From positions 1 to 46,245 of the forward strand of contig CAJXOU010000019.1 in NCBI GenBank assembly GCA_913057645.1: a DNA stretch of 46,245 nucleotides, in the 5' to 3' direction. The position numbers and the translations under genes are program-made. This document shows, piece after piece, positions 194 to 13,759 of this stretch (the stretch's first letter is position 1; each line of letters begins with the position of its first letter). Below the pieces are notes generated by a model. It worked only from the letters and a program-made list of their open reading frames with translations. It was not told the origin of the DNA and searched no databases. This DNA comes from an uncultured Rhodobiaceae bacterium. Lineage in GTDB: Bacteria > Pseudomonadota > Alphaproteobacteria > Parvibaculales > Parvibaculaceae.

Positions 194-1387
194 TTACGCC
201 GTCGCGGCCGCCAGTTCGCGCGGCGCTTCCGCGTCTTCCACCGGCATCTCTTCCAGCGCGAGGTTCGAGATGAACTGCTTCGCGCAGGCGTCCCATGCAA
301 AGGTCATCGCATAGGCGCGGGCGTCGTCGCGGTTCAGCCTCAGCGCCGCCATGCAGGCGGTCTTGAGGTCATCGTCCAGCGCGCCGGCTTTCATGCCGTC
401 CGGCGTAAAGGCGAGCACGTCGCCCGGGCCCTGCACCGGATAGCCCGCGACCGGTGTTCCCGCCGCCATCGCCTCGATGAGGACGAGGCCGAACGTGTCG
501 GTCTTGCTCGGGAAGACGAAGACGTCCGCGCCCGCATAGGCTTCCGCCAGTTCCTCGCCGAAGAGCGGCCCGGTGAAATGCGCGTCGGGATATTTCTTCT
601 TCAGGTGCTCGAGGCGCGGGCCTTCGCCGACCACCATCTTCGAGCCCGGCAGGTCGAGATCGAGGAACGCCTCGATGTTCTTTTCGACCGCGATGCGGCC
701 GACGTTGAGCCAGACGGGGCGCGCGAGGCCCTTCGGATGCGCGTCCGCGAATTCCGGGCGTGGCCGGTAGCGCTCCGTGTCGACCCCGCGCGACCAGATC
801 ACCGGTTCGCCGAAGCCGCGCTCCTTCAGCTCCTTCTGGAGCGAGGGCGTCGCCACCATCAGCGCGGTCGATTTCGCGTGGAAGCGGCGCAGGAACGCAT
901 AGCCCCATGACAGCGGGATGCCCGTCCGCGCATTCAGATATTCCGCAAAGCGCGTATGGAACGAGGTCGAGAAGGGAATCTTCTTCCTGAGGCAGAAAGA
1001 GCGCGCGGCGAGCCCGAGCGGGCCTTCCGTCGCGATGTGGATCGCGTTCGGGTTCGCCTCGCGGATCATGCGCGCGATCTTGCGGCCCGGGAAAAGCGCG
1101 AGGCGGATTTCCTTGTAGGTCGGCAGCGGCACCGTCGTGAACATGTCCGGTGTGATGAAGGTCACTTCGTGGCCCATCGCCGTCAGGTTCTGCGTCAGCT
1201 GCTGCAGCGTGCGCACCACGCCGTTCACCTGCGGCGGCGCGGCGTCGGAGACGATCACGATGCGCAAGGGTTCGCCGAAGCGGCCGACGTCGCGCGGCAG
1301 CGGTTTTCCGCGCAGGCGGTCCAGAAGCCTTGCCACGCGGCGCTTCTTGCGGGGCGTGGCGGGGGGCGTTTCCGATGTATGGGGCAT
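194..1387 (-). CDS. GT4 glycosyltransferase, probable diacylglycerol glycosyltransferase (Agt-like)
   Basis: A 397-residue GT-B fold glycosyltransferase of family GT4. The N-terminal domain has the acceptor-side motif PPQVNGVVRTLQ (51-62). The C-terminal domain has the nucleotide-sugar region FVFPSKTDTFGLVLIEAMAAG (290-310, with the distal Glu at 305) and VGEGPRLE (253-260). The start at 1387 is chosen because the family begins about 40 residues before VIVSDAAPP and because the upstream gene stops one base earlier, so translation is probably coupled. Family names include alpha-mannosyltransferase MgtA. Its pairing with a PlcP-like gene is the arrangement described for Agt, which glycosylates diacylglycerol during phosphate-starvation lipid remodelling. 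The donor sugar (glucose, glucuronate or mannose) cannot be read from the sequence. It probably acts at the cytoplasmic face of the inner membrane. Confidence 0.85.
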   Translation of the reverse strand: MPHTSETPPATPRKKRRVARLLDRLRGKPLPRDVGRFGEPLRIVIVSDAAPPQVNGVVRTLQQLTQNLTAMGHEVTFITPDMFTTVPLPTYKEIRLALFPGRKIARMIREANPNAIHIATEGPLGLAARSFCLRKKIPFSTSFHTRFAEYLNARTGIPLSWGYAFLRRFHAKSTALMVATPSLQKELKERGFGEPVIWSRGVDTERYRPRPEFADAHPKGLARPVWLNVGRIAVEKNIEAFLDLDLPGSKMVVGEGPRLEHLKKKYPDAHFTGPLFGEELAEAYAGADVFVFPSKTDTFGLVLIEAMAAGTPVAGYPVQGPGDVLAFTPDGMKAGALDDDLKTACMAALRLNRDDARAYAMTFAWDACAKQFISNLALEEMPVEDAEAPRELAAATA

Positions 1388-2369: not shown

Positions 2370-2481
2370 GTCCTCGCCGATCTCTCATTCTCATCGCGCC
2401 AACTCCGGGCTGCGCGGTTACCGCGAATCGTTTTTCGTCCATCTCTCACGCCGGAAATATGGGTGCGCCGCAACAAGGTCT

Positions 2482-2523
2482 TGTGACGCTTGGATGACAC
2501 TTGTGTGACAGTCAGGCTCCGGA
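2482..2523 (+). promoter_or_regulatory. Triple TGAC direct repeat (11-bp period), candidate response-regulator or Pho box
   Basis: TGAC occurs at 2484, 2495 and 2506, exactly 11 bp apart, followed by CTCCGGA at 2517-2523. A close copy lies at 7274-7314; about 34 of 42 aligned positions agree. On the minus strand the units read CTGTCAC, GTGTCAT and GCGTCAC separated by 4 bp, which is the layout of a PhoB box and points towards plcP. On the plus strand it lies 97 bp before the OmpR-type regulator. OmpR-family proteins bind direct repeats of about this period, so autoregulation is an alternative to PhoB control. No convincing -10 was found for either gene. Confidence 0.65.
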
Positions 2524-2591
2524 CCCTGCGGCATTCCGTCCCTAAGTGTCTGGCCTGGCGGGACTTTCCCCGTGCTAAGGTAACAGTGGGG

Positions 2592-2605
2592 GATGACGGG
2601 TCATC
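2592..2605. promoter_or_regulatory. Perfect inverted repeat before the regulator start codon
   Basis: GATGAC-GG-GTCATC lies one base before the ATG at 2607, where a ribosome binding site would be. The best purine run, GGGGG at 2587-2591, is 15 bases from the start codon, so a fold here could bring it nearer or hide the start. The half-site contains the same TGAC word as the triple repeat upstream. The function is unknown. Confidence 0.4.
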
Positions 2606-2606
2606 A

Positions 2607-3281
2607 ATGCGTGTTCTGATCGTCGAGGATAACCGCCGCCTTGCGGCGCTCATCGCCAAGGGGTGCGGAACGGCCGGCTTTGCCGCCGACATCTGCGAAG
2701 ACCTCGAAGGCGCGCGGGCGGCGCTCGCCACCGCGCGATATGACATCGCCGTGCTCGACCTCGGTCTTCCCGACGGCGACGGGCTCGACCTTCTCGCCTC
2801 GCTCCGGCAGCAGGGGAGCGAGCTTCCCGTTCTCGTGCTCACCGCGCGCGATGCGCTCGAGTCCCGCGTCGAGGGGCTGAATGCGGGCGCCGACGACTAT
2901 CTTCTCAAGCCCTTCGCGATGGAGGAACTCGTGGCGCGGCTTCGCGCGCTTCTCCGCCGTCCCGGTCAGGCGCTGGGGCGGAAGCTCACGGCGGGCAATG
3001 TCGAGTTCGATACCGTCGCCCGCGAAGTCTCGGTCGGCGGCGTCAATACCGTCTTCTCCCGGCGCGAGACGGACCTTCTCGAAATTCTGCTCCGCCGCCA
3101 GGGACGCGTCGTGCCGAAGGACGCCATCGAGGAAGGTCTCTATTCCTTCGGCGACGAGGTCTCCTCCAACACGATCGAGGTCGCGGTTCATCGTCTGCGC
3201 AAGCGCATGGCGGAAGCGGGCGCCGATATCGAGGTGCACACGCTGCGTGGCATCGGCTATGTGCTGAGTCCTGCGGCATGA
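2607..3281 (+). CDS. OmpR-family response regulator (QseB/PmrA/TctD-like)
   Basis: A 224-residue regulator with an N-terminal receiver domain and a C-terminal winged-helix DNA-binding domain. The receiver has acidic residues at VLIVEDN, the phosphoacceptor Asp51 in AVLDLGLPDGDG, Thr79 in LTA and Lys101 in LLKPF. The C-terminal domain ends in the usual VHTLRGIGYVL. The ATG at 2607 is chosen because it directly precedes MRVLIVEDN; the open frame further upstream is not receiver-like and runs through the operator region. Its stop overlaps the kinase start as ATGA. With EptA downstream the locus resembles PmrCAB, which modifies lipid A in response to metals or cationic peptides. It probably controls the neighbouring lipid genes through the TGAC repeats, but this is inference. 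Confidence 0.9.
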   Translation: MRVLIVEDNRRLAALIAKGCGTAGFAADICEDLEGARAALATARYDIAVLDLGLPDGDGLDLLASLRQQGSELPVLVLTARDALESRVEGLNAGADDYLLKPFAMEELVARLRALLRRPGQALGRKLTAGNVEFDTVAREVSVGGVNTVFSRRETDLLEILLRRQGRVVPKDAIEEGLYSFGDEVSSNTIEVAVHRLRKRMAEAGADIEVHTLRGIGYVLSPAA

Positions 3282-4669
3282 AGCGTTTCCTTCGCCGTTT
3301 ATCCGCTCCCTCGCTCACCGTGCGCCTCACGCGGCGCATGCTCGCCATTGTCGCTGCGAGCTTCCTGCTTCTCCTCGTCATTCTGCAGGTCCAGTACCTC
3401 CTGGTGCGCGACACGCTGCGCGACCGGGGTCTGCGCGCCCAGGCGGCCGACATCGCCGCGCATGTCCGGGCCGGTCGGGATGACGGATTTGCCGTCGACC
3501 TGCCGGAAACGCTGAAGACGGCCTACCACCGTCCCGACCGGCAATATGTCTATTTCCTTCTCGACGGCGAGGGCCGCGTGCTCGCCTCCTCGCATGGCGG
3601 CACCGCGCCGCTCGCACCGGTTCCCGCTCCCGGCGGCGATCCCTTCTTCAGCCGCACCGACTTCGCGAACCGTGGCGCCTATTACGGCGTGACCGTTCCG
3701 CTCGAAGGAGCGAACCCGCCGCTCTACCTGCAGGTGGCGCAGGGCTCCGTTCATCCCGATGTGCTGGCGGACACCCTCATCGAGGAATTTCTCGAGCGTT
3801 CATGGGCCTTCCTTCTTCTTCTCGCCGTCGCGATCGCAAGCGTGACGATCTGGACCGTGCGCCAGTCGCTGGCGCCGGTCACGCGGCTCTCCGTCATGGC
3901 GCGCAATATCGGGCCCGCTTCGCTCGACCGGCGCCTGCCGGAAGACAATCTCCCTTCCGAAATCACGCCGCTCGTCCATGCCGTCAACACCTCGCTCCAG
4001 CGCATCGAAAGCGGTTACCGGCGCGAGCGCGAATTCACGGCCAATGCCGCGCATGAACTCCGCACGCCGCTCGCCGTCCTCAAGGCGAATATCGAAACAC
4101 TGTCGAGCCTTGACGAAGTACCGCAGCTCATCGAGGAACTCGCCGACCTCGAACGTCTCGTGACGCAGCTTCTCCGTCTCGCGCAGGTGGACAATCTGGT
4201 GCCCCGGCCGGAAGAGGAGGCGGACCTTCGCGCCGTCGCGACGGCCGTCGCGCGGCAGCTCGGGCCCATCGCGCTTGCGGAAGGCAAGTCCGTCGAGCTC
4301 ACGGGCGAGGAGGGGCCGGTCCGTGTGCGCGGCCATGCGGACTTCCTTGCGCTCGCGCTCCGCAATCTCGTGGAGAACGCGCTCGCCCACACGCCGCGCG
4401 GCTCAGGCGTCGAGATCAGGGTGGGGGCGGACCGGAGTCTCGCCGTCGTCGATGACGGCCCCGGCGTTCCGCCCGCCGATGCCGCCCGCATCTTCGAACG
4501 CTTCGTGCGCGTGAAGCCCGGCGCCTACAAGGGAGCGGGCCTCGGCCTTTCCATCGCCCAGCGCGTCGCCGCCGTTCACGGCGGTGGAATCGAGGTGAGC
4601 CGCGAGCCGGGGAGAGGCGCCGTCTTCACTCTCCGTTTGCCCGGAAATCCGCCGTTTTCGGCCTCGTAA
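3278..4669 (+). CDS. Sensor histidine kinase, QseC/PmrB-like
   Basis: A 463-residue inner-membrane kinase. The first membrane segment is at about 20-43 and the second at about 174-193, enclosing a periplasmic sensor of about 130 residues. A HAMP-type linker follows, then the phosphoacceptor His259 in NAAHELRTP, and an ATPase domain with the N box NLVENALAH, DDGPGVP and GAGLGLSIAQ. The gene overlaps the regulator by 4 bp (ATGA) and must be its partner. The periplasmic part lacks an obvious acidic ExxE iron-binding motif of the PmrB kind, so the signal is unknown. Tandem GTAAG words 11 bp apart (4666, 4677) lie across its stop codon. Confidence 0.92.
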   Translation: MKRFLRRLSAPSLTVRLTRRMLAIVAASFLLLLVILQVQYLLVRDTLRDRGLRAQAADIAAHVRAGRDDGFAVDLPETLKTAYHRPDRQYVYFLLDGEGRVLASSHGGTAPLAPVPAPGGDPFFSRTDFANRGAYYGVTVPLEGANPPLYLQVAQGSVHPDVLADTLIEEFLERSWAFLLLLAVAIASVTIWTVRQSLAPVTRLSVMARNIGPASLDRRLPEDNLPSEITPLVHAVNTSLQRIESGYRREREFTANAAHELRTPLAVLKANIETLSSLDEVPQLIEELADLERLVTQLLRLAQVDNLVPRPEEEADLRAVATAVARQLGPIALAEGKSVELTGEEGPVRVRGHADFLALALRNLVENALAHTPRGSGVEIRVGADRSLAVVDDGPGVPPADAARIFERFVRVKPGAYKGAGLGLSIAQRVAAVHGGGIEVSREPGRGAVFTLRLPGNPPFSAS

Positions 4670-4756
4670 GGTTCCTGTAAGCGAGAGCCGCTGAATTCAT
4701 GTTGTCCGGGAGCCTGCGAGGGACCCGGCGGCACGTGCAGCCATCCGGGAATTCGA

Positions 4757-6484
4757 ATGCCTCTTTCAAGCCTGACCAGGGCCCTTCTGCAGCGGCTTTC
4801 CGCGTTTCGGCTTCCCGCCGTCCATCCGCTTCTCCTCGCGCTCGGCGTTTCCTGCCTCTTCGTCCTTTTCTACAATGGCCAGCTCTGGTCGGCTGTGCTC
4901 GGCTGGTGGCCCGGCCGTTCGCTGCGCGACATCTCGTTTCTCGCGTCGATCGGCCTTTTTCTCGCCATCGCTTTCAATCTTGTGCTGCAGCCGTTCGCTT
5001 TCCCGCGCCTGCTGAAACCCGTTCTTGTTCTTCTCGTTCTCGCCGCGGCGGGCGTCTCCTGGTTCGCCTCCGCCTATGGCGCGCTGATGGACCGCAGCAT
5101 GATCGCGAATGTGATCGAAACGGATGCGCGGGAGGTCGGCGATCTTCTGAATTTCCGTTTTCTCCTTCACATGGTGCTTTTCGGCCTGCTGCCGGCGCTT
5201 CTCGTCGCGGTCGTGCCGCTCCGGTCATCCGGCTACGGACGCGAGGCCCTCCTTCGCGGCGGTACGCTTCTCGGCAGCGTCGCGCTGATCGGTCTCGTCG
5301 CGGTCTTCTTCTTTCAGGACTATGCGGTTCTTCTGCGCGGGCATCGCGAACTCCGGCTGATGATCAATCCGTCCGCCGCGATCTATGCCTCGCTGCGCTA
5401 TGCGACCGCCGTACCGGAAGGGCTTGGCGCGGAGTTCGAGCGCATCGCGGACCGTGTCGAGCGCGGGCCTCGTCCTGCGAAACTCGGCGGCCGGAGAAAG
5501 GTGCTTGTCTTCGTCGTCGGCGAGACGGCGCGGGCAGATCACTTTTCGCTCAACGGTTATGCGCGCGACACCAATCCGGAACTCGCGAGGCGCGGCGTGG
5601 TGAGCTTCGGCGATGTCCGGTCCTGCGGGACATCGACGGCGGAGTCCGTGCCCTGCATGTTCTCCGATCTCGCGCGCGGCCGGTATTCCGCCTCCAGCGC
5701 GGGGTCGCGCGAGAACCTGCTCGATCTTCTCGTCCGCGCCGATATCGATGTCCTCTGGCTCGAGAACAATTCGAGCTGCAAGGGCGTCTGCGCGCGCGTT
5801 CCCGTCAGGACGGCGTGGGAAGCGGAAGACACGCAATATTGCGATGGCGGCGAATGTCTCGACGACCTGATGGTCCGTCAGCTTCGGGAGGCGATGGCGG
5901 CGGATACCGGCCGCGATCTCGTCGTGGTGATGCACCAGATCGGCAGTCACGGCCCGTCCTACTTCAAGCGCTACACGCGGGACTATCGCCGCTTCGCGCC
6001 AACCTGCGACACGAACCAGCTTCAGTCCTGCTCGCAGGCGGAGCTTGTGAACAGCTACGACGACTCGATCCTCTACACCGATCACATTCTCGCCGAAACG
6101 ATAGACGTTCTCGCCGGTGCCTCGGACCGCTTCGATACCGCCATGCTCTATGTCTCGGATCACGGCGAGTCGCTCGGCGAGAAGGGCATCTATCTCCACG
6201 GCATGCCCTACATGTTCGCACCCGACGCACAGACGCATGTGCCGATGGTGCTCTGGACCTCGCCCGGCTATCGCGCCGCCACCGCGCTCGACATGGCGTG
6301 CGTCCGCGGCGAGGCCGGCAAGGCATACAGCCACGACAACCTCTTCCATTCGGTGCTCGGCATGTTCGGCGTCCGCACCGATGTCTATCGCACCGATCTC
6401 GACCTGCTCGCGCCCTGTCGTCCGGGCGCGGCGGTTGCTCACGTGGCGGGCCTCGCCACCCCAGATGAGACGGCCCGCCCGTGA
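4757..6484 (+). CDS. eptA: Lipid A phosphoethanolamine transferase (EptA/PmrC family)
   Basis: A 575-residue enzyme with five N-terminal membrane segments (about residues 15-180) and a periplasmic sulfatase-fold domain. Visible catalytic parts are VVGETARADHFSLNGYARD, the nucleophile Thr in SCGTSTAESVPC, and the zinc-binding SDHGESLGEKGIYLHG. Several cysteine pairs (SSCKGVC, CDTNQLQSC) match the disulfides of the family. It transfers phosphoethanolamine from phosphatidylethanolamine to lipid A or core sugars, leaving diacylglycerol, and typically gives resistance to cationic peptides. It follows the kinase by 87 bp and overlaps the PAP2 gene by 4 bp (GTGA). The 87-bp gap has no clear promoter, so it is probably part of the regulator operon. 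The exact acceptor is not determined. Confidence 0.93.
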   Translation: MPLSSLTRALLQRLSAFRLPAVHPLLLALGVSCLFVLFYNGQLWSAVLGWWPGRSLRDISFLASIGLFLAIAFNLVLQPFAFPRLLKPVLVLLVLAAAGVSWFASAYGALMDRSMIANVIETDAREVGDLLNFRFLLHMVLFGLLPALLVAVVPLRSSGYGREALLRGGTLLGSVALIGLVAVFFFQDYAVLLRGHRELRLMINPSAAIYASLRYATAVPEGLGAEFERIADRVERGPRPAKLGGRRKVLVFVVGETARADHFSLNGYARDTNPELARRGVVSFGDVRSCGTSTAESVPCMFSDLARGRYSASSAGSRENLLDLLVRADIDVLWLENNSSCKGVCARVPVRTAWEAEDTQYCDGGECLDDLMVRQLREAMAADTGRDLVVVMHQIGSHGPSYFKRYTRDYRRFAPTCDTNQLQSCSQAELVNSYDDSILYTDHILAETIDVLAGASDRFDTAMLYVSDHGESLGEKGIYLHGMPYMFAPDAQTHVPMVLWTSPGYRAATALDMACVRGEAGKAYSHDNLFHSVLGMFGVRTDVYRTDLDLLAPCRPGAAVAHVAGLATPDETARP

Positions 6485-7203
6485 GCGATGCGTCCTTTGC
6501 CGCCCGGCCTCGCAGCGTTCCGCGCTTCCCGGAACTCGCATTGGCCGTCGCGGCGATTGCCGTCTTCACGCTCTGGCCGCCGGTCCATGCGCTCGACCTT
6601 CGCCTCGAAGCCTACTTCTTCGACCGGGCCGCAAGCGCCTGGCTCGTCCCGCCGGACGGCCGTGATGCTCTCTTCTGGCTTTTCTATCGCGGTCCCAAGG
6701 TGGCGCTTGCCGTAGCGAGTGCGGCCTCGCTTCTCTGGCTCCTCCGGTGCGGGCTCACGCGGCGCTGGCGTTCCTTCGAAACGCGCCTGCTGCTCGCTCT
6801 TTCCGTTCTCGGCGTTACCGCGCTCCTTGCCGGTCTCCTCAAGAGGTGGACAGGCATCTCCTGCCCCGTGCAGGAAACGATCTTCGCCGGTCCCTATGCG
6901 CATGTCGCGATTCCGGATCGTCTCTTCGGTATTATTCCGTTCAATGAGCATTTCAGGTGCTGGCCTGCCGGTCATGCGGCTGCGGGGTTCGGGCTTCTCG
7001 GCCTTCGCCTTCTCGCACCCGGCGGCGTATCTCCGTCATGGCGCCATCTCGCGCCGGGCCTTGCGGGCGGATGGGCGCTTGGCATCTACCAGATGGCCCG
7101 GGGACAACATTATCTGTCCCACACCATCGTCACGATGGCGCTCGCCTTTCTCCTTTCATCGCTCGCCATCATGATTCTCGATCGCCTCGAGGATCGCGGT
7201 TGA
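6481..7203 (+). CDS. PAP2-family membrane phosphatase
   Basis: A 240-residue membrane protein with about six hydrophobic segments. PAP2 signatures are KRWTGISCP near residue 118, PAGHAAAG for the PSGH motif, and RGQHYLSHT for the last motif, where His replaces the common Asp; that form occurs in the RGAHFLSH subgroup. The start is GTG and overlaps the eptA stop as GTGA. PAP2 proteins beside eptA include lipid A 1-phosphatases and undecaprenyl-pyrophosphate or phosphatidate phosphatases. Removal of the 1-phosphate or handling of a lipid phosphate fits the operon, but the substrate cannot be decided from sequence. Confidence 0.85.
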   Translation: MSDASFAARPRSVPRFPELALAVAAIAVFTLWPPVHALDLRLEAYFFDRAASAWLVPPDGRDALFWLFYRGPKVALAVASAASLLWLLRCGLTRRWRSFETRLLLALSVLGVTALLAGLLKRWTGISCPVQETIFAGPYAHVAIPDRLFGIIPFNEHFRCWPAGHAAAGFGLLGLRLLAPGGVSPSWRHLAPGLAGGWALGIYQMARGQHYLSHTIVTMALAFLLSSLAIMILDRLEDRG

Positions 7204-7273
7204 CCGGGGATAAGTTTTTCTGGCTAATCCTTCGCAGTAACGACGGCGTCCGTTCCGAGCGACCAAAAGTGTT

Positions 7274-7314
7274 TGTGACGTTTCGATGACAGTTCAGTGA
7301 CAACAGCCTCCGGA
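7274..7314 (+). promoter_or_regulatory. Second triple TGAC repeat, before the lipid kinase gene
   Basis: TGAC occurs at 7276, 7287 and 7298, again exactly 11 bp apart, with CTCCGGA at 7308-7314. The last TGAC is only 23 bp before the TTG start at 7325. The order of elements and the downstream CTCCGGA match 2482-2523, so the two are probably read by one protein. On the minus strand the units are TTGTCAC, CTGTCAT and ACGTCAC, again Pho-box-like, but here that orientation points away from the kinase gene. Confidence 0.65.
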
Positions 7315-7324
7315 TATCCCCGTT

Positions 7325-8206
7325 TTGGCGCTTCGCCGCTTCATCCACATCATCCTGAACCCGACCGCGGGCAGGCGTAAGCGCCACCTTCTGGACGATG
7401 TCGTCGGCCGTCTTCGTGCCGCGGGTGCGGATGTCACCATCGAGCTCACGGAGGCTGCCGGTCACGCGACGGAGCTTGCGCGCAATGCCGCGCGCGCAGG
7501 CCATGCGGACGTCATCGTTGCGGCGGGCGGCGATGGAACGATCAACGAAGTCGCACGTGGATTGCTCGGGCAGGGCGTGCCGCTCGGTATCGTGCCGCTC
7601 GGCACCGCGAACGTGCTTGCCGTCGAGATTGGACTTCCTCTGCAGGCGGAGAATGTCGCTTCCATGCTGCTTGGCGGGCCTGCCGAACTCATCGGCACCG
7701 GGCTCGTTCAGGGCGAAATCTTTCTGATGATGGTCGGCATCGGCTTCGACGGCGAGATCGTGCATGGCATCGATCCGAAGCTGAAACGCCTCTGGGGCAA
7801 GGGCGCTTTCATCTGGTCGGGCCTCAGGACATGGGTGCGCGGGCCCGCGCATGACATCCGCTTCATCGTCGACGGGCGCGAGAAGCGTGCCGCCTGGGCC
7901 ATCGCCACGAATGGCCGCCACTATGCGGGGCCTTACGTGCTCGCGCCCGCTCAGGACATCACGCAGCCGGGTCTCACGCTTTTCCTCTTCAGAAAGCCGT
8001 CTCGCTTCGCCTTTGCGATCTATCTCGCCGCGCTCGGTCTCGGGCTCGTGCCGCGTCTTTCGAGTGTCGAGGTCATTCCGGCGCGCCACATCGACGTGCT
8101 GGGACCCGAAGGGCTCGCCGTCGAAGTCGATGGCGACGACAGAGGCGTCCTGCCGCAGACGATCGAGCAGGGCACGCAGTTTCTCCGGATGGTCGTTCCC
8201 GGCTGA
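7325..8206 (+). CDS. Diacylglycerol/lipid kinase, YegS/DgkB-like
   Basis: A 293-residue soluble lipid kinase of the DAGK catalytic superfamily. It shows ILNPTAGRR (10-18), the nucleotide-binding AAGGDGTINEVARG (66-79) and PLGTANVLA (91-99). The TTG at 7325 is required because NPTAG lies nine residues in; an in-frame ATG at 7286 is closed by TGA at 7298. The Shine-Dalgarno sequence is poor. The enzyme phosphorylates diacylglycerol (or a related lipid) with ATP to phosphatidate. EptA, and PlcP if active, make diacylglycerol, so a recycling role fits. A regulatory repeat sits immediately before it, so it may be switched separately from the upstream genes. The gene abuts the next, convergent stop with no spacer. 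Confidence 0.88.
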   Translation: MALRRFIHIILNPTAGRRKRHLLDDVVGRLRAAGADVTIELTEAAGHATELARNAARAGHADVIVAAGGDGTINEVARGLLGQGVPLGIVPLGTANVLAVEIGLPLQAENVASMLLGGPAELIGTGLVQGEIFLMMVGIGFDGEIVHGIDPKLKRLWGKGAFIWSGLRTWVRGPAHDIRFIVDGREKRAAWAIATNGRHYAGPYVLAPAQDITQPGLTLFLFRKPSRFAFAIYLAALGLGLVPRLSSVEVIPARHIDVLGPEGLAVEVDGDDRGVLPQTIEQGTQFLRMVVPG

Positions 8207-11862: not shown

Positions 11863-11957
11863 CGCGGCATCGGTTGAGACTTTCTCCCGCTGCCGTAGCC
11901 CTTCCTGGGCGTTTCCTCCCTAAACTTGGGCCCTGGTTCGCCAGGGCCCCTTTTTTT
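11863..11957 (+). ncRNA. Probable trans-acting small RNA, about 95 nt
   Basis: A promoter-like pair ends at 11856 and a strong intrinsic terminator ends at 11957, with no reading frame between. The predicted RNA can form a stem from CGGCA (11865-11869) and TGCCG (11890-11894), then a small hairpin GCCC-TTCCT-GGGC (11898-11910). A single-stranded stretch containing TTTCCTCCC (11911-11919) follows, then the terminator. An exposed CCUCCC before the terminator is typical of alphaproteobacterial sRNAs that pair with Shine-Dalgarno sequences. It matches no family I can name with confidence. Both flanking genes are on the other strand, so it is not a leader or trailer. Confidence 0.6.
11928..11957 (+). 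terminator. Rho-independent terminator
   Basis: GGGCCCTGG-TTCG-CCAGGGCCC forms a perfect 9-bp stem with a UUCG loop, followed by C and seven T. The T run is on the plus strand only, so it terminates a plus-strand transcript although no plus-strand gene lies upstream. Confidence 0.88.
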
Positions 11958-11992
11958 GTCCGAAGCGGAAAATCGCGGAAAAGCGGGACTTT

Positions 11993-13684: not shown

Positions 13685-13759
13685 GGGCGTGTAGCTCAGC
13701 GGGAGAGCACTTCGTTGACATCGAAGGGGTCACAGGTTCAATCCCTGTCACGCCCACCA
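13685..13759 (+). tRNA. tRNA-Val (anticodon GAC)
   Basis: A complete cloverleaf: acceptor GGGCGTG pairs with CACGCCC, the D arm contains GCTCAGCGGGAGAGC, and the anticodon stem is CTTCG/CGAAG with loop TTGACAT (anticodon GAC). The T arm is ACAGG-TTCAATC-CCTGT, followed by the discriminator A and an encoded CCA at 13757-13759. It reads GUC and GUU valine codons. No clear attachment-site duplication is seen at its 3' end. Confidence 0.97.

Follow-up and report, generated by a model that had tools for sequence, protein, structure and literature searches.

Tandem direct repeats with a period of 11 bp are bound by regulators of the OmpR family. Several chromosome-wide families of sites are also known, among them those of Noc and SlmA and the KOPS, and REP/BIME elements are found at convergent gene ends. 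For PhoB, putative Pho boxes are described in clusters of plcP with a glycosyltransferase gene (PMC4796936, available portion), and most PhoB sites of E. coli are described as intragenic, inert and not conserved (PMC10294691, available portion). Here we analyze a triple repeat, TGAC-N7-TGAC-N7-TGAC, in a contig of 46,245 nucleotides from an uncultured Rhodobiaceae bacterium (CAJXOU010000019.1; this whole stretch is referred to as the window). The repeat is exact at positions 2484–2509 (plus strand, site 1) and 7276–7301 (plus strand, site 2), and the window holds no other exact match. The sequence-only reading, which took these for two copies of a strong candidate for an operator defining a lipid-remodelling regulon, counted too few, as the genome of the window (G000) has 52 exact copies. 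We consider it slightly favored that the sites are PhoB boxes, with roles in plcP activation, in a block of the lipid kinase gene and, through the dispersed array, at the scale of the chromosome.

The 52 exact triples in the 3.75-Mb draft of G000 compare with none for the reversed pattern (72 versus 11 with one mismatch allowed), and the window pair is therefore two members of a large class. Among 27 Parvibaculum genomes, 14 have 48–78 copies, G009 has 17, and 12 have 0–3. The 34 genomes outside Parvibaculum have 0 or 1 copy each. These counts are not independent, as related genomes share positions. The control with the reversed pattern has a background in some of the array-rich genomes (26 versus 74 in G012, 25 versus 62 in G022, 13 versus 67 in G001, and 8 versus 48 in G013), partly because of the array itself, as 4 of the 48 copies in G013 also hold CAGT in the same period.

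The array-rich genomes are located within one clade of 18 genomes, with a support of 92 in a GyrB and MoaE tree (built by a quick method and rooted by us on G003 and G007, with G011 and G023 positioned by MoaE alone). Outside this clade are nine genomes, with 0–2 copies each. A subclade nested in it, formed by G002, G011 and G021, has 2, 3 and 3 copies, and by parsimony the array was lost there. These three drafts are 83–88% complete, so incomplete sequence cannot account for such low counts. G009 is also inside the clade, on a long GyrB branch, with TGACATTCCGG as unit 2 in several copies, and may be a diverged relative or a mixed bin. The exact triples remaining in the subclade are at pit (G002, G011 and G021), at plcP (G011 and G021), and in one further sequence common to all three genomes. 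The subclade thus lost the array but not these triples, as would be expected if PhoB promoters and the array are under separate constraints. The further triple, TGACAAACAYRTGACYRAGTCATGAC, is unlike the array and conserved more widely (G002:C1:1877919, G011:C35:32143, G021:C107:3744, G016:C4:100304 and G025:C2:92027); no called gene overlaps it in G002, G011 or G021.

Most copies of the dispersed class form a composite site. The G000 copies have the sequence YTTNR-TGACGTTNNNR-TGACAGTTCGR-TGACAGTCG, and unit 1 is TGACGGT in G013. In G017, the units are TGACAGTTTTR, with AGAGGGGGG after the third unit and 83–97% agreement per column (for example in locus L367, 15767–15792); features of this genome refer to the 30 of its 78 copies that were retrieved as loci, and those of G024 to 30 of 54. 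The unit columns are constant and the spacer columns variable. In 27 orthologous pairs of copies from G000 and G024 (excluding L456/L074, which are 99.8% identical), columns 4, 6, 16, 17 and 18, all outside the search pattern, show no differences, there are 10 in column 9 and 10 in column 26, and 12% and 19% of the aligned positions differ in the two flanks. Scored with a weight matrix derived from all 52 G000 copies (the two window sites among them), the class has a median of 55.1, site 2 has 48.5 and site 1 has 39.4, the class minimum. The class has a sharp boundary: within 400 kb of G013, scores of 47.7 or more are reached at eleven places, and the next one scores 16.4 (an overlapping register).

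Companion words, GGGGAYAA or TTRTCCCC (consensus CGGGGAYAAGT), are found within 400 bp of 46 of the 52 copies in G000, 40 of 48 in G013 and 25 of 30 in G017. Their density is 2.2–2.6 per kb near the copies versus 0–0.07 per kb farther off. In G000, TTRTCCCC starts at +38/+39 in 17 instances and at +48/+49 in 6, with about one helical turn between the two positions.

On the opposite strand the unit reads CTGTCAY-N4-CTGTCAY, an 11-bp direct repeat (7 + 4) with the layout of the Pho box consensus. The pstS promoter box of G013 is CTGTCATCGAACCGTCGTAAAGC, a dispersed copy 3.7 kb away is CTGTCACCGAACCGTCACGAAGC, and one copy in G017 is CTGTCACAAAACTGTCATAAAACTGTCA. When matrices of the dispersed copies are applied to three pst regions, the pstS box is the best match after the array copy, with scores of 19.2, 33.6 and 39.5. 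Similar units, with GCTAGC or a near-match about 20 nt beyond, are present at the pstS promoters in nine members of the clade, among them G002. PhoB (TIGR02154) is present as a single copy above the cut-off in 24 of the 27 Parvibaculum genomes, including G000, and its last 75 residues are nearly identical; none above the cut-off was found in G009, G021 and G022, all of which are incomplete genomes.

A –10 at a fixed downstream distance is present at site 1, and it is absent at the dispersed copies and at site 2, which is itself downstream of a promoter-like sequence. Words of the –10 type at the plcP/pst spacing occur at 1 of 52 copies in G000, 1 of 48 in G013 and 1 of 30 in G017, and the control rates are 0.02–0.03. 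The single matches are the plcP sites in G000 and G017; the match in G013 is elsewhere, and the CATAGT at its plcP site is outside the word list. A promoter role for the dispersed copies is not supported.

The copies are intergenic except for six inside called genes (two each in G000, G013 and G017; genes were called with our own codon-usage script, and the starts are approximate). Leaving out these six and two G000 copies without a neighbor, 122 copies could be classed by gene context (48 of 52 in G000, 46 of 48 in G013 and 28 of 30 in G017). Convergent gaps hold 45 of these, versus 19 of 168 background gaps of at least 100 bp (400 kb of G013 and the window; p = 3e-7, treating the copies as independent, which orthologous copies are not). 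On the genome-wide count and this gene context, we reject the idea that the motif stands for a lipid regulon and nothing more. Seven flanking proteins picked by hand are MraZ, PNPOx, MoaE, a thioesterase, an ABC ATPase, an HTH regulator and a PHO4 transporter.

The positions along the chromosome are non-random in three of four genomes, as expected for site families like those of Noc, SlmA and KOPS. In G013, which is one contig of 3,914,745 bp, the coefficient of variation of the gaps is 0.61 versus 0.97 for random placement (p = 3.5e-4), and 3 gaps are shorter than 30 kb versus 14.5 expected. The values are 0.57 versus 0.94 in G017 (five contigs, with the lengths of C5, C7 and C10 as round estimates, one non-consensus site dropped and overlapping sites merged) and 0.60 versus 0.97 in G024 (one non-consensus site dropped; its positions are shared with G000 and are not independent), with 0 of 5000 simulations reaching them in either case. 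TGAC is on the C-rich strand for 45 of 52 copies in G000, 38 of 48 in G013 and 24 of 29 in G024. The GC skew flips sign repeatedly in G013:C1 560001–960000, where the orientation of the ten exact copies follows the patches, with one of the ten at a boundary. The chromosome of G013 appears to be much inverted.

The positions are also largely conserved between species. For 37 of the 52 copies in G000 and 34 of the 48 in G013, a flanking gene is shared with a copy of the other genome at 45% identity or more, mostly with the same polarity, although some of the pairs with a single gene are weak. Two G000/G013 pairs are inverted relative to the genes, and the skew is near zero at both. Of 30 copies in G024, 27 could be aligned with a G000 copy across the site itself, and for another the alignment covers a single side; the other two are a non-consensus match and a consensus copy, L468, without counterpart among the G000 loci compared. 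This comparison of filled and empty loci between G024 and G000 yielded no empty site. A copy overlapping the moaE stop codon is found in 8 of 25 genomes read, and G016, outside those 25, also has one at adjoining coordinates. In locus L014, 31 bp separate an array copy at 1501, near mraZ, from the gene for RNase P RNA (1103–1469), and the G013 counterpart of this copy by flanking genes is L112. An Rfam search of 20 sources (the window and 19 loci) gave four matches, the RNase P RNA in L014, two tRNAs and one sRNA, none of them over an array copy.

The locus that contains the two window sites has the following features, in window coordinates.

194–1387, minus strand: glycosyltransferase (Pfam Glyco_transf_4 / Glycos_transf_1), called Agt-like by its place beside plcP, from the gene order in the available portion of PMC4796936.
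1389–2369, minus strand: PlcP-like metallophosphoesterase (Pfam Metallophos), named after the sequence-only reading and the gene order.
2456–2461, minus strand: –10-like element CATATT in the promoter of plcP, separated from the box by 22 nt (AATATG in the TGAC frame, constant offset in 14 of 14 genomes).
2484–2509, plus strand: site 1, triple TGAC, whose minus strand is a Pho-box-like tandem pointing to plcP (pattern match and genome comparison).
2607–3281, plus strand: OmpR-family response regulator, nearest to PmrA/QseB models but under their cut-offs (profile matches).
3278–4669, plus strand: histidine kinase (profile matches).
4757–6484, plus strand: EptA-type phosphoethanolamine transferase (NF028537, above cut-off).
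6481–7203, plus strand: PAP2 family phosphatase (27.5 bits versus a cut-off of 27.2).
7198–7229, plus strand: promoter-like GGTTGACC-N18-CTAATC ahead of the lipid kinase and partly within the end of the PAP2 gene (regular expression; 8 of 9 loci, with G017 missed).
7206–7213, plus strand: GGGGATAA, a box of the dispersed class (word search).
7276–7301, plus strand: site 2, triple TGAC; the promoter-like –10 is 46 nt upstream (pattern match).
7314–7321, minus strand: GGGGATAT, a variant box at +38 of the composite (word search).
7325–8206, plus strand: diacylglycerol/lipid kinase, YegS-like (Pfam DAGK_cat).

Elsewhere in the window, an mmgR-type sRNA (Rfam suhB) and a tRNA gene are at 11891–11964 and 13685–13756.

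Both sites are conserved operator-like sequences at lipid genes, as the sequence-only reading had it, and their 11-bp tandem layout fits a regulator of the OmpR/PhoB family. The CTCCGGA reported after both copies is there, and at site 1 it is confined to G000 among 14 genomes (over the 14 nt after the site). The reported agreement of about 34 of 42 bases is close to the 32–33 columns obtained with one gap and does not hold for the ungapped alignment, where 26 of 42 agree. The motif is indeed conserved at orthologous genes in relatives, but it extends far beyond the lipid locus.

Of the 14 genomes with this regulator (G000 included), 13 have site 1 as an exact triple 97–140 bp upstream of the regulator gene; in the 14th, G012, one unit is changed. 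On the plcP side, the spacing of the –10 element to the box is close to that at pstS, and the plcP site of G013 has the variant CATAGT. In G009, G011 and G021, site 2 has two intact units and a changed third one, and the GGGGAYAA word is absent. In G013, plcP and the lipid kinase gene are adjacent, and the genes for the regulator, histidine kinase, EptA and PAP2 are absent; this genome nevertheless retains site 1, and its site 2, with two units, follows the same promoter-like sequence. The sites are therefore independent of the local regulator, and PhoB is the better candidate binder. The four genes form a cassette (2607–7203) with the plcP box on one side and the lipid-kinase promoter on the other. 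It is missing entire from G013 (L107, L375 and L376), and was thus gained or lost as a block.

From these features we infer the following model. Phosphorylated PhoB at site 1 would activate plcP and the glycosyltransferase gene, in agreement with the putative Pho boxes described for plcP clusters. PhoB bound at site 2, which follows the lipid kinase promoter, would block the kinase gene, and this block would send the diacylglycerol released by PlcP to glycolipid and not back to phosphatidate. The same box, together with CGGGGAYAAGT boxes for a putative second protein, is kept about 50–78 times intergenically in one Parvibaculum clade. The dispersed copies may be fixed PhoB anchor sites for nucleoid organization in phosphate starvation, and perhaps also a PhoB sink. 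An action of the dispersed array at the scale of the chromosome is most likely, although our confidence in its details is low. It is a tentative proposal that a response-regulator operator was multiplied in this clade into about 50–78 largely position-conserved composite sites, each with three PhoB half-sites and CGGGGAYAAGT boxes, which organize the chromosome or couple phosphate status to it.

Several observations weigh against this model. PhoB is equally present in array-free genomes and is therefore no explanation for the array by itself. The pstS box of G000 scores 19.2 versus the class minimum of 39.4. The regularity of spacing is not significant in G025 (0.80 versus 0.90, p = 0.20; five contigs, with the lengths of C1, C3 and C4 as round estimates). 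The orientation with respect to GC skew fails in G017 (17 of 30), and a reading by replication direction, which holds in G000, G013 and G024, fails there. Of the 36 companion words in the 400 kb of G013, which has 11 copies, 16 are no more than 600 bp from a copy, and the other 20 are farther away. Finally, it is the geometry of site 2 alone that points to repression of the lipid kinase.

The dispersed boxes might merely titrate PhoB, providing a threshold or buffer for the Pho response, with the spacing as a by-product of tolerated positions. This account is compatible with the model above and, taken as the whole explanation, is rather improbable. Strong boxes without a –10, many per genome and often in convergent gaps where no promoter is disturbed, are what a sink would look like. 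However, a sink would work without fixed positions, spacing or companion boxes, and G000 and G013 largely share positions, with gaps that are over-dispersed in three of four genomes.

At a similarly low probability, another winged-helix protein with PhoB-like specificity, or its complex with a binder of CGGGGAYAAGT, would use the array for segregation, replication-linked or topological work, and PhoB would share the promoter copies only. The gain and loss of the array while PhoB stays is consistent with such a protein, as are the loss of the GGGGAYAA word at site 2 in G009, G011 and G021 and the orientation that tracks GC skew in G000, G013 and G024. On the other hand, the dispersed consensus shifts among clades somewhat like the pstS box does, and no candidate was found among the ParB-domain counts, the only ones examined, which do not track the array. 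A ParB paralogue was dropped on these counts.

The response regulator encoded at 2607, named in the sequence-only reading, is very unlikely to be the binder, despite the position of site 1 ahead of its gene. Its presence does not follow the copy number. The best match is only 42–43% identical in G001, G013 and G022, which have 67, 48 and 62 copies and no orthologue (the absence in G022 is less certain because this draft is 84% complete), and an orthologue of 77–78% identity is present in G011 and G021, each with just 3 copies. Moreover, the –10 at pstS-like spacing is on the plcP side of site 1, and G013 keeps the sites of the lipid locus. The local regulator was rejected as a general binder for this lack of co-occurrence. 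PhoB, offered in that reading as the alternative, fits best, with pstS-like units, the plcP –10 spacing and the sites kept in G013.

A dispersed mobile repeat of the REP or MITE type, containing PhoB-like units by chance, has equally little in its favor: there are many intergenic copies limited to one clade and some inverted CGGGGATAA/TTATCCCCG pairs, but the copies have little sequence in common beyond the motif, their positions are shared across species, their columns vary as in a binding site, and companion boxes are absent near the motif (within about 300 bp) in all 11 viral contigs matched. The same contigs led us to reject a phage origin. A REP/RAYT element was rejected as well, since the Y1 REP transposase is found in none of the 14 array-rich genomes and in 1 of 27 overall, the array-poor G019. 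A LexA-like GTTC-N7-GTTC was dropped because unit 1 is mostly GTTT in the G000 copies.

If the model is correct, a nutrient two-component system would be tied to chromosome organization or to a built-in titration device, and at the lipid locus one regulator would turn plcP on and the lipid kinase off. Direct tests are possible in P. lavamentivorans, for which a complete genome is public. No account of such an array was found in open-access titles and abstracts, a scope that mostly leaves out subscription journals.

The promoters of the Pho regulon, including those of the plcP-agt clusters in the available portion of PMC4796936, are the closest relatives of these sites. They have in common the CTGTCAY tandems 11 bp apart and the box with a –10 at plcP and pstS, and a glycosyltransferase gene adjoins plcP in those clusters as it does in this locus. 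In contrast to Pho regulon promoters, each exact copy here has three half-sites, and dozens of copies have no recognizable promoter. The inert PhoB sites of E. coli (PMC10294691, in the portion available) are likewise PhoB-type sites not tied to promoters, whereas the copies of the array lie between genes, keep their positions for the most part and usually have a second box nearby. The families of Noc, SlmA and KOPS also comprise tens or more of chromosomal sites off promoters, with an orientation bias in some genomes, but the array differs from them in sequence, in its PhoB-like units and in its companion CGGGGAYAAGT boxes. REP/BIME elements share with the array the preference for convergent intergenic regions. 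The TGAC part of the array, however, is a direct and not an inverted repeat, the RAYT transposase is absent in 26 of 27 genomes, and the columns are those of a binding site.

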